The translations under genes and the position numbers were made by a program. This document shows, piece by piece, positions 1 through 1,828 of a stretch of DNA of 64,000 nucleotides. Where the stretch lies: NCBI RefSeq assembly GCF_004681125.1, contig NZ_SIHO01000004.1:1-64000 (forward strand). The letters are read 5' to 3'. The stretch comes from Glacieibacterium arshaanense (GTDB lineage: Bacteria; Pseudomonadota; Alphaproteobacteria; Sphingomonadales; Sphingomonadaceae). The notes beneath the pieces were generated by a model, which did no database searches, was not told the DNA's origin, and saw only the letters and a list, made by a program, of their open reading frames with translations. How positions within the stretch are numbered: the stretch's first letter is position 1; each line of letters starts with the position of its first letter.

Positions 1-39
1 TTAGGAAAATCGGCCGCCGCGACTGTTACACAAAGGTGT
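1..39. repeat. Left arm of 39-bp perfect inverted repeat flanking the integrase
   Basis: Positions 1-39 are the exact reverse complement of 1562-1600. The match stops at 40 on this side and at 1561 on the other, so the integrase gene lies between the two arms. It may continue to the left of the window. This copy carries one full TGTTACACAA motif of the kind found repeated in the integrase upstream region. It could be part of an invertible or attachment structure, or an assembly artefact if a contig starts here. Confidence 0.75.
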
Positions 40-116
40 CTTGTCGGCCGACACGCACCGAGCGCGATGGAATTATCCGTCAGTTCGGGAACCCACAATC
101 AAGCGCTGTGCCGTCA

Positions 117-1541
117 TCATCGTTTGAGATGGGATAGGTCGATATCTGCGAATTCAAGACCGTCTACAGCGTCGCTCAGCATCCTTATGCGATGACCGTG
201 GCCATAGTTTTCAGAGACCTTGTTCCGTCCCGAAGCGCCGACCGTCCACCCCCCGAGCGCCATAGCCAAATCATGGTCGATTCGGGAGGCCCTCAGCTCG
301 TCACGGAAGTTGTGCCGGAATGAATGAAAACAAGTTCGTTCGCGGCACGCTCCAGCTCGGCGCACGAACTGGGTAAACCATTTGGAAAAAGCGACCGAAC
401 GTGCACCCTTGGGCCCCGGTTCGATTTCATCGAAGAGTTTTGTTTGTTGGCCACGACCTTGGTCCGCTACGTACGCGAGGAAGCCGAGCTCGACGAGCGT
501 GCGGTGGATGGGGACGATTCTCCTGCTCGCGGCGGTCTTCAGCCTTTTATCACGGCTGCCGACAAGTGATTCACTGCGAACCGATATACAGGGGATGCCG
601 TCCAAACTCTCAATGTCCGCCACGTCGAGCTGACAGATTTCATTCAACCGCATACCAGTATGAAGTGCGAGTAGCGGCACCCAGTATCTCGCGTTCTGCG
701 GATACTCTGACCCCGGAATCGCATATCCTCGTTCACCGTTGAGGCAGCCCACGTAAAGCGGTGCGTGGAAAATCAGTCTCAATTGGTCGACGGAAAAGGG
801 ATGCCGCTTGTCCCGTTTTGCGGTTTGGTCGGGAAGCCTCAAGCCTCGCGCGGGATTTCGGTGCAAAAGCTCCTCGTTAACCGACCAGTTTATGAACGTA
901 GACAACGAGGTCAGGTAGGTATTTGCATTGGCAGTACTGATCAGACTGGGCGCCTTTTCATGCCGCATCAGATCGGCAGCCTGCCGGGGAGAAAGCGTTG
1001 GAAATCGCTTCGCGGCGTTTTTCGGCAGCAACCTGAGAACTTCGACAAATTCACGGATATGGGTCCGTGAGATATCCGCCATAGGGGTGCTGGCACCGAT
1101 GACAGAGGTCGCCACCTTTCGACAGGTCACGTAGCTTTCACGTGTTCGATCCGACCATCCTTTTGTCGGATCGTTGATATACCGGTCATACGCTTCGCCG
1201 AACGTTGGCCCCAAAACCAGACGATCTACGCGCGGTGCGTCACCGTCGCCATGAACGCCCGTTTCCATACTGATATTTTGCCAGTTCGGCGGGGCCGGAT
1301 CATTGCGACCACGATGCTCGATCAAGGGGTCCAACAACATCTGATCGACGCTCATTCCAGCGCCAAATCTGGCGCGAGCAATCAGGGATTCAACCTGCGA
1401 CGCTACACGCGGAAATCTTCGAAGCGCAGTTTCCAGACTATCGGTGTGGAGCGATCGCCAAATTTCGATCCTGCCAACAGCGAGAATTGCATCGTTGGGA
1501 ACACGGCGTCGGACATAGAATTTGCCACCGCGCAGGCACAT
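117..1541 (-). CDS. Tyrosine-type site-specific integrase (phage/island type)
   Basis: A 474-residue tyrosine recombinase expected to integrate or excise a mobile element at the neighbouring tRNA-Phe gene. The N-terminus has the short basic stretch with RRRVP typical of integrases with a DUF6538-like head. A SAM-like core-binding region follows (about 120-240). The catalytic domain shows Arg298 in GMRLNE, a likely beta-hairpin Lys near 335, His406-x-x-Arg409 in HSFRH, Trp432 in GGW and nucleophile Tyr446 in ENYGHG. The open frame runs upstream through the tRNA gene, which cannot be coding there. ATG at 1541 is chosen because the FYVRRRVP segment follows at once and the paired TTGTGTAACA motifs lie just upstream. 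All catalytic residues are present, so it looks intact. The attachment site itself is an inference. Confidence 0.85.
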   Translation of the reverse strand: MCLRGGKFYVRRRVPNDAILAVGRIEIWRSLHTDSLETALRRFPRVASQVESLIARARFGAGMSVDQMLLDPLIEHRGRNDPAPPNWQNISMETGVHGDGDAPRVDRLVLGPTFGEAYDRYINDPTKGWSDRTRESYVTCRKVATSVIGASTPMADISRTHIREFVEVLRLLPKNAAKRFPTLSPRQAADLMRHEKAPSLISTANANTYLTSLSTFINWSVNEELLHRNPARGLRLPDQTAKRDKRHPFSVDQLRLIFHAPLYVGCLNGERGYAIPGSEYPQNARYWVPLLALHTGMRLNEICQLDVADIESLDGIPCISVRSESLVGSRDKRLKTAASRRIVPIHRTLVELGFLAYVADQGRGQQTKLFDEIEPGPKGARSVAFSKWFTQFVRRAGACRERTCFHSFRHNFRDELRASRIDHDLAMALGGWTVGASGRNKVSENYGHGHRIRMLSDAVDGLEFADIDLSHLKR

Positions 1542-1553
1542 GCCGATCGGCAA

Positions 1554-1659
1554 TTTGTGTAACACCTTTGTGTAACAGTCGCGGCGGCCGATTTTCCTAA
1601 TTTTCTCGGAGGTTGTGACCAATTCTGGGGCCGAATTGTGTAACAGGGGTGTGTAGCAA
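1554..1659. promoter_or_regulatory. Repeated TTGTGTAACA motifs upstream of the integrase (possible arm-type sites)
   Basis: TTTGTGTAACA occurs at 1554-1564 and again at 1567-1577, 13 bp apart. ATTGTGTAACA occurs at 1635-1645 with a degenerate partner, GTGTGTAGCA-like, near 1649-1659, 14 bp apart. Two closely spaced pairs between an integrase start and its tRNA target fit arm-type integrase or excisionase binding sites or autoregulatory operators. No binding is proven. Confidence 0.45.
1562..1600. repeat. Right arm of 39-bp inverted repeat flanking the integrase
   Basis: Exact reverse complement of positions 1-39. It sits 20 bp upstream of the chosen integrase start and overlaps one of the TTTGTGTAACA motifs. 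Together the arms bracket the integrase coding region. Confidence 0.75.
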
Positions 1660-1720
1660 AAACGTTGAGACGACCGTCTCTTGGACGATTTCCCAATGTT
1701 TTCAATGCGATTTTGCGTAA

Positions 1721-1795
1721 TGGTGCCCGGGGGCGGAATCGAACCACCGACACGGGGATTTTCAATCCCCTGCTCTACCCCTGAGCTACCCGGGC
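1721..1795 (-). tRNA. tRNA-Phe (GAA)
   Basis: On the minus strand the sequence folds as a full cloverleaf of 75 nt including an encoded CCA at 1721-1723. The acceptor stem pairs GCCCGGG with CCCGGGC, the D arm is GCTC/GAGC, and the anticodon stem is GGGGA/TCCCC around the loop TTGAAAA, giving anticodon GAA for phenylalanine. The variable loop is GTGTC and the T arm carries TTCGATT. The 3' end faces the integrase, as expected for a tRNA used as an integration target, where the element restores the 3' end of the gene. Confidence 0.93.
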
Positions 1796-1828
1796 GCAAC
1801 CGTCCGAAGCGCGGTGCGAGCGGCGGAT

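Follow-up and report, generated by a model that had tools for sequence, protein, structure and literature searches.

What kind of DNA does an integrase gene belong to when it is bracketed by two perfect inverted copies of a 39-bp sequence, one of which begins at the very first nucleotide of a contig? This question is raised by contig C5 of the alphaproteobacterium Glacieibacterium arshaanense, whose first 64,000 nucleotides (C5:1-64000, hereafter the window) were analysed. The genome assembly consists of 10 contigs totalling 3.26 Mb, and position 1 of the window is a true contig start. A reading of the sequence alone had proposed either an invertible cassette that flips its own recombinase gene or an assembly artefact. 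Comparison with related genomes makes it likely that the locus belongs to a family of integrative elements in which the integrase gene lies on a self-invertible segment and, beside the target tRNA gene, is cut off from the leader on the attP side.

The inverted repeat and the integrase gene

Positions 1-39 are the reverse complement of positions 1562-1600 (39 nt, 100% identity, arms 1,522 nt apart), and the match stops at position 40. With equal base frequencies, a given 39-mer is expected about 2e-19 times in 64 kb. The perfect repeat around the integrase described in the sequence-only reading is thus confirmed, with an open reading frame at 1541-117 between the arms. When the assembly was searched with window positions 1-1800 (E ≤ 0.001), the 39-mer was found at these two sites only, five small contigs of the assembly reading as N.

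The gene between the arms (117..1541, minus strand), identified by its reading frame and by domain search, encodes a tyrosine integrase of 474 aa with DUF6538 and Phage_integrase domains, and its match to PF00589 (E = 5e-11) places it among the tyrosine recombinases/integrases. Residues R298, K332/K335, H406, R409, W432 and Y446, which we take to be the catalytic-type residues of tyrosine recombinases, are unchanged across 15 aligned integrases. An ATG, GTG or TTG codon is present near the expected start in some of the integrases, including that of the window; in L010 and L044 none of the three occurs from the upstream stop to position +50.

Of the right arm, read as an inverted P' arm, C5 contains just the first 39 nt (1..39, plus strand), the contig starting inside it. 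The left arm, composed of the P' arm and core of attL, extends over 176 nt in all (1562..1737, minus strand); its segment 1562-1600 is present in both copies, and the comparable arms of relatives predict that 1601-1737 is repeated as well. Each arm holds one TGTTACACAA/TTGTGTAACA motif, at 24-33 (TGTTACACAA, plus strand) and at 1568-1577, and further occurrences lie at 1555-1564, straddling the edge of the arm to the right of the integrase gene in the window, and at 1636-1645. The motif had previously been noticed in each arm and upstream of the integrase, as is indeed the case at 24-33, 1568-1577 and 1636-1645. On the plus strand, the TTGTGTAACA-type motifs form a pair with a spacing of 13 nt (1555..1577) and a second pair (1636..1658) exactly 81 nt from the first, a distance that is the same or nearly so in several relatives. 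These motifs are candidate arm-type sites, to which the integrase would bind. Since the integrase-proximal pair (1555-1577) lies only partly inside the second arm, the two sites are not equivalent.

Integration into a tRNA-Phe gene

A tRNA-Phe (GAA) gene (1721..1795, minus strand), absent from the sequence-only reading, lies directly upstream of the integrase gene and is the integration target. The last 17 nt of the tRNA constitute the attL core (1721..1737, minus strand) and are identical to C3:23-39 of the same genome, which provides the attR. Contig C3 starts with CGACC...GGGCACCA, that is, 22 nt followed by the 17-nt core (39 nt together), and leaves the attL sequence exactly at the end of the core. 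The genome of the window therefore contains an attL and a matching attR, as a tRNA-targeting integrative element does. Beyond attR, a polysaccharide-deacetylase-like gene, named from its translation rather than by a family search, is located at C3:156-2078. Inside the arm, just past tRNA-Phe, a short stem with a T-rich tail (1680-1667) is possibly the terminator of this gene; the search for such structures gave one site compared with 2.5 in shuffled sequences, which by itself is no evidence.

The two contigs break at corresponding points, C5 beginning exactly 39 nt inside the arm and C3 exactly 39 nt ahead of the end of the core, at the position where relatives place the edge of the P-flank repeat. 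To judge from these sequences, C3 would be the far side of the gap from C5, with the missing part of the element between them. C3 probably begins in a repeat; of its first 39 nt, only the 17-nt core occurs twice in the assembly, and the P flank was found only once in the genome. Of the second site, the window has 39 nt without the core, and by comparison with relatives this piece presumably belongs to an internal attP.

The island body was sought in the readable contigs of the window's genome with two proteins of the relative G299 described below. Its ATPase-like protein gave no match in the genome, an empty result that by itself proves nothing, and neither this protein nor the resolvase matched any of seven pieces of the genome, all of C6 included. 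An empty site was sought in 40 genomes by means of the gene beyond attR, which matched none of the 39 genomes other than its own (E ≤ 1e-60). The starts of C1 and C4 (L090/L093) are much alike over the 120 nt compared and constitute another repeat-limited break in this assembly.

Occurrence of the repeat in related genomes

The sequence-only reading had called for a comparison with related genomes. Some match to the integrase was present in 106 of 298 genomes of the family, of which the best 30 were located, and the contig search yielded 33 loci encoding relatives. The repeat test comprised 34 chosen loci (nearly all full-length, with at least 39% identity) and the window. An inverted repeat linking the regions upstream and downstream of the integrase gene was detected in 29 of these 35 loci, or in 27 of 32 when the window and the rows repeating a genome (L041, L042) are set aside. 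Three of the latter were untestable because of short flanks (L018, 64 nt upstream; L025, 6 nt upstream; L046, 194 nt downstream), so that 27 of 29 testable non-redundant relatives bear out the repeat. The two others, L022 and L028, have no inverted arm despite 10 kb on each side and are true negatives.

The repeats are 37-404 nt long (130-190 nt in 21 of 27), with arms 100% identical in 20 of 27. Most of them span the region from the tRNA 3' end to near the integrase start, those of L027 and L029 extending into the gene, and in most relatives the arm thus takes in the tRNA 3' end, that is, the attachment core. The second copy is inverted and lies 10 nt to 6.3 kb beyond the integrase gene. The tRNA genes targeted by elements of this layout include those for Leu, Gly, Lys, Arg and Ala; the carriers range from Sphingomonas to Azospirillum, and the identity of their integrases falls to about 40%.

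Among 26 loci outside this set, mostly more distant or of part length, the repeat was present in one (L052); the 25 integrase loci lacking it, several with short flanks, include the part-length close matches L032 and L036 (60 and 63% identity), and L030 and L031 have too little upstream sequence for the test. Ten extra stretches comprised four loci already counted, two with a repeat (L205, 144 nt; L210, 30 nt) and four without. Viral contigs contained one truncated relative, with no repeat in its 15 nt of upstream sequence. Sixty plasmid records matched the integrase, with at most 31.3% identity among the 20 matches listed.

These data bear directly on the possibility that the 39 bp correspond to no biological repeat and were produced by an assembler error or by a read that was chimeric or folded back. 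Position 1 is indeed a contig start and the repeat reaches exactly that end, as the sequence-only reading had suspected. However, a full-length repeat occupies the same place in the 27 relatives, including assemblies of one to four contigs (G289, G010, G292, G178), and C3 starts with the matching attR 39 nt before the end of the core, an outcome predicted by repeat-limited assembly but not by a random chimera. We consider such an artefact extremely unlikely: the repeat is real, and to judge from the relatives the contig stops on running into it. In an element integrated in the tRNA-Phe gene, the attL arm would recur in inverted orientation, and the 39 bp would be the part of this second copy that can be seen, and C5 most likely stops 39 nt into an inverted attP that the assembler was unable to pass. 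Contigs elsewhere likewise end in or beside these arms or flanks (L008, L017, L019, L020, G312, G314). The layout accounts for several short contigs that break just past the integrase, and such breaks hide the structure.

Complete elements with an inverted attP

In three genomes (G299, G036, G292), the whole element is found on one contig and consists of attL, integrase, cargo, a complete inverted attP, body and attR, with the cores of attL, inverted attP and attR oriented in the same respective way in all three. The P flank and core of the inverted attP correspond to those of attR over 2,420 nt at 99.96% in G299 (L015), over 1,397 nt at 100% in G292 and over 207 nt at 93.2% in G036. The G299 and G036 elements adjoin a tRNA. 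No tRNA was detected at the G292 element, which adjoins a tRNA fragment; its integrase gene is fragmented, and its left site is preceded by 46 nt that repeat another core region at a distance of 3 kb. A free-standing, insertion-sequence-like unit of 1.6 kb was also considered and is ruled out, these three relatives showing a larger island with an attR.

Core searches covered 20 distinct genomes. In G312, G314 and G304, an attR-type piece is located on a separate contig and its flank corresponds to the one adjoining the inverted attP, with full identity over 127 nt, full identity over 95 nt and 94.0% identity over 331 nt, respectively. Contigs C2 and C34 of G312 begin with exactly 127 nt in common, a break of the kind seen at C5 and C3 in the window's genome, and a contig start in G307 is P-like. 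No third core, that is, no attR, was found within the mismatch limits in G010, G104, G081, G298, G303, G305 and G308 or for the tRNA-Leu locus of G304, where attL and the inverted core only are present. G301, the genome of L007, has an attR-like half core, and one exact core each was found in G311 and in G313, the genome of the negative locus L022. Third cores also occur in G302 and G310. At the start of contig C1 of G300, an attR-like piece with a P-like flank (L186:67-83) runs counter to the direction that the tRNA-associated core of this contig would predict.

The body of the G299 element includes a type IIG restriction-modification gene. A serine resolvase gene (Pfam Resolvase) with 71-79% identity to that of G299 is found close to the P flank in L007, L009, L010 and L011; in G292, by our own reading, a resolvase-like frame lies almost entirely inside the repeat. 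An ATPase-like protein with a GAGKT motif, also our own reading, is common to L007, L011, G299 and G036. Such a protein of about 490 aa (L127:9469-10947, L177:5139-6626) has no Pfam or NCBIfam match and corresponds to PHROGs of unknown function only, e.g. 2467. Pfam scans of nine proteins, eight from G299 and one from G036, revealed no relaxase or conjugation genes.

The order of parts in these elements would thus be tRNA/attL, integrase, in some cases a cargo gene, complete inverted attP, island body and attR. This anatomy is well supported in the relatives and fits both contig ends, C5 and C3, of the window's genome, and by homology the element of the window probably has the whole family layout.

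Evolution of the arms

Within a genome, the two arms are at least 99% identical in 24 of 27 cases (one genome counted twice), the exceptions being L026 (98.2%), L029 (91.8%) and L023 (87.9%). The best match of an arm in another genome covers 3-96% of its length, the repeated genome being left aside. The arms are thus homogenized within genomes while diverging between them, a pattern of concerted evolution seen in the sequences.

The integrase frame contains no stop in 25 of 27 arms (one genome again counted twice; two stops in total), as against 14, 61, 66, 49 and 23 stops in the other five frames, one forward frame of which is open in 16 of 27. Similarly, among 22 loci, an ATG-started frame in P that stays open through core and arm is that of the integrase in 15, versus 5 and 2 for the other two frames, these loci being kin and hence not independent trials. 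By our own reading, the P frame and the integrase of L007 are in different frames. Differences at the three codon positions were nevertheless even in the arms and not in the first 60 codons of the gene (ungapped): 270/253/269 versus 170/102/473 in the largest group and 124/94/120 versus 76/59/185 in the second larger one. The hypothesis that the arm encodes a conserved peptide was rejected, there being no codon-position bias though the integrase frame is open. An open leader in the arm is only possible.

The inverted attP could instead be a historical relic without a regulatory role, left by aberrant integration, for instance of a dimer or of a second circle, and maintained in identical form through gene conversion. 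At 100-2,400 nt, the repeats have sufficient length for homologous conversion, and the arms bear no sign of coding constraint. The seven genomes without a recognizable attR fit this scenario too, as do the integrases of L049 and L026, which are broken into several frames, and that of G496, which has an in-frame stop. Against it, the layout recurs at five other kinds of tRNA gene, in genera as far apart as Sphingomonas and Azospirillum and with widely divergent integrases, and arms that differ between genomes are identical inside most of them. We regard a relic as possible but rather unlikely.

Orientation of the integrase segment

The core and the P' arm are common to attL and the inverted attP but run in opposite directions, which should enable the integrase to flip the segment that carries its own gene. 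The arms and cores are inverted in the relatives, as in invertible segments of the inverton or shufflon type. Nevertheless, the integrase points away from the tRNA in all 28 relatives with a detected tRNA (of 34 examined; 26 without repeated genomes).

The opposite isomer was found in L007, which belongs to another species and has no tRNA alongside. Here, the integrase start is joined to a flank of P type, which has homology to those of L009, L010, L011, L015 and L023 (five of nine compared), while the other side shows a match only near the core (two of nine compared). At the sequence level, this arrangement is the product expected from recombination between attL and inverted attP. In the same genome, a tRNA-Leu (L126:7227-7313) lies 78 kb away and is followed by a different integrase-like gene (named by eye), which suggests stacked islands; a rearranged history of L007 is possible instead. 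The invertible cassette of the sequence-only reading thus stands as an architecture, with full arms in relatives and one natural isomer, whereas flipping itself is not reflected in the tRNA-linked loci, which all have one orientation. From the layout and the L007 isomer, we infer that inversion is active.

Beside the tRNA, the integrase gene would be held apart from the P flank, and it would be joined to P in the flipped isomer or at the attP of the excised circle. P may supply the promoter and perhaps also the translation start. If P is the promoter source, the orientation beside the tRNA would be a latched 'off' state, and we propose as a hypothesis that orientation controls integrase expression.

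The gap between the integrase gene and the inverted arm exceeds 0.5 kb in 18 of 27 non-redundant loci and is 10-24 nt in the other nine. All 13 gaps examined among these 18 contain open reading frames, the main one being read from the armR side in L008, L014 and L015 and in the orientation of the integrase in the other 10. This slot between integrase and inverted attP carries a DRT4/DRT6-like reverse transcriptase in L011 (11422-13050), a RhuM-family protein in L010 (11530-12561) and a UvrD-like helicase in L008 (5536-7707), and thus houses defence-type cargo in several relatives. Inversion might therefore serve mainly the gene in the slot, which would be read alternately from the P side. The size of most gaps, their coding content, the defence-like cargo and the three genes read from armR are consistent with such a cargo switch. 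It is argued against by the 10 of 13 main frames that share the orientation of the integrase and by the nine gaps that leave no room for cargo, and we find it very unlikely.

Comparison with known systems

Among the papers that our search of an open-access collection turned up, no title or abstract beginning described an integrase lying between attL and an inverted attP. The elements resemble tRNA-targeting islands with tyrosine integrases, of the sort collected in Islander (PMC4383910), in having an integrase beside the tRNA, an attL that restores the tRNA 3' end and a direct-repeat attR at the far end, as in G299, G036 and, beside a tRNA fragment, G292. They differ from such islands by the complete inverted attP that persists inside the integrated element, the integrase lying between opposed sites. 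In Thermococcus, Int-pTN3 is a tRNA-targeting tyrosine integrase; when its site is present in two inverted copies, it inverts the DNA between them in vitro (PMC5495485). There, the activity is tied to chromosome rearrangement between tRNA genes, whereas here the inverted sites are built in around the integrase gene.

A further analogy, quite unlikely in our opinion, is that the islands are bacterial counterparts of the yeast 2-micron plasmid with its FLP/FRT system. In this plasmid, double rolling-circle replication can be started by way of the FRT sites in its 599-bp inverted repeats (PMC3147054). The two repeats, which hold the target sites of the recombinase, separate the plasmid circle into two unique parts, as those of the islands would do in an excised circle. 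In the islands, however, an integrase takes the place of the recombinase, the element is chromosomal, and circle and amplification are hypothetical. Recombination of attL with attR in the three-site elements would yield a two-site circle with the integrase on one part. The excised circle would hold two inverted attP in homogenized repeats, each made up of P flank, core and P' arm and reaching about 2.6 kb in G299; one of the two unique arcs would carry the integrase and the other the body. Inversion driven by the integrase during replication might then let the forks chase each other and amplify the circle, the serine resolvase in or near the P flank would resolve multimers, and insertion beside a tRNA would latch the integrase off.

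How the integrase of an integrated island is silenced and yet kept recoverable is an open question for many elements. An integrase on its own flippable segment, with the attP flank kept ready in the chromosome, offers a simple hypothesis, namely that orientation sets expression. In ICEclc, Pcirc reportedly acts across the joined ends of the circle, and we know of no inverted internal attP in that element. Pcirc is given as the promoter of intB13 (PMC2892462), and the present elements would be alike in that a far-end promoter would reach the integrase only once the ends join. In contrast to ICEclc, this joining could here also occur in place, by inversion.
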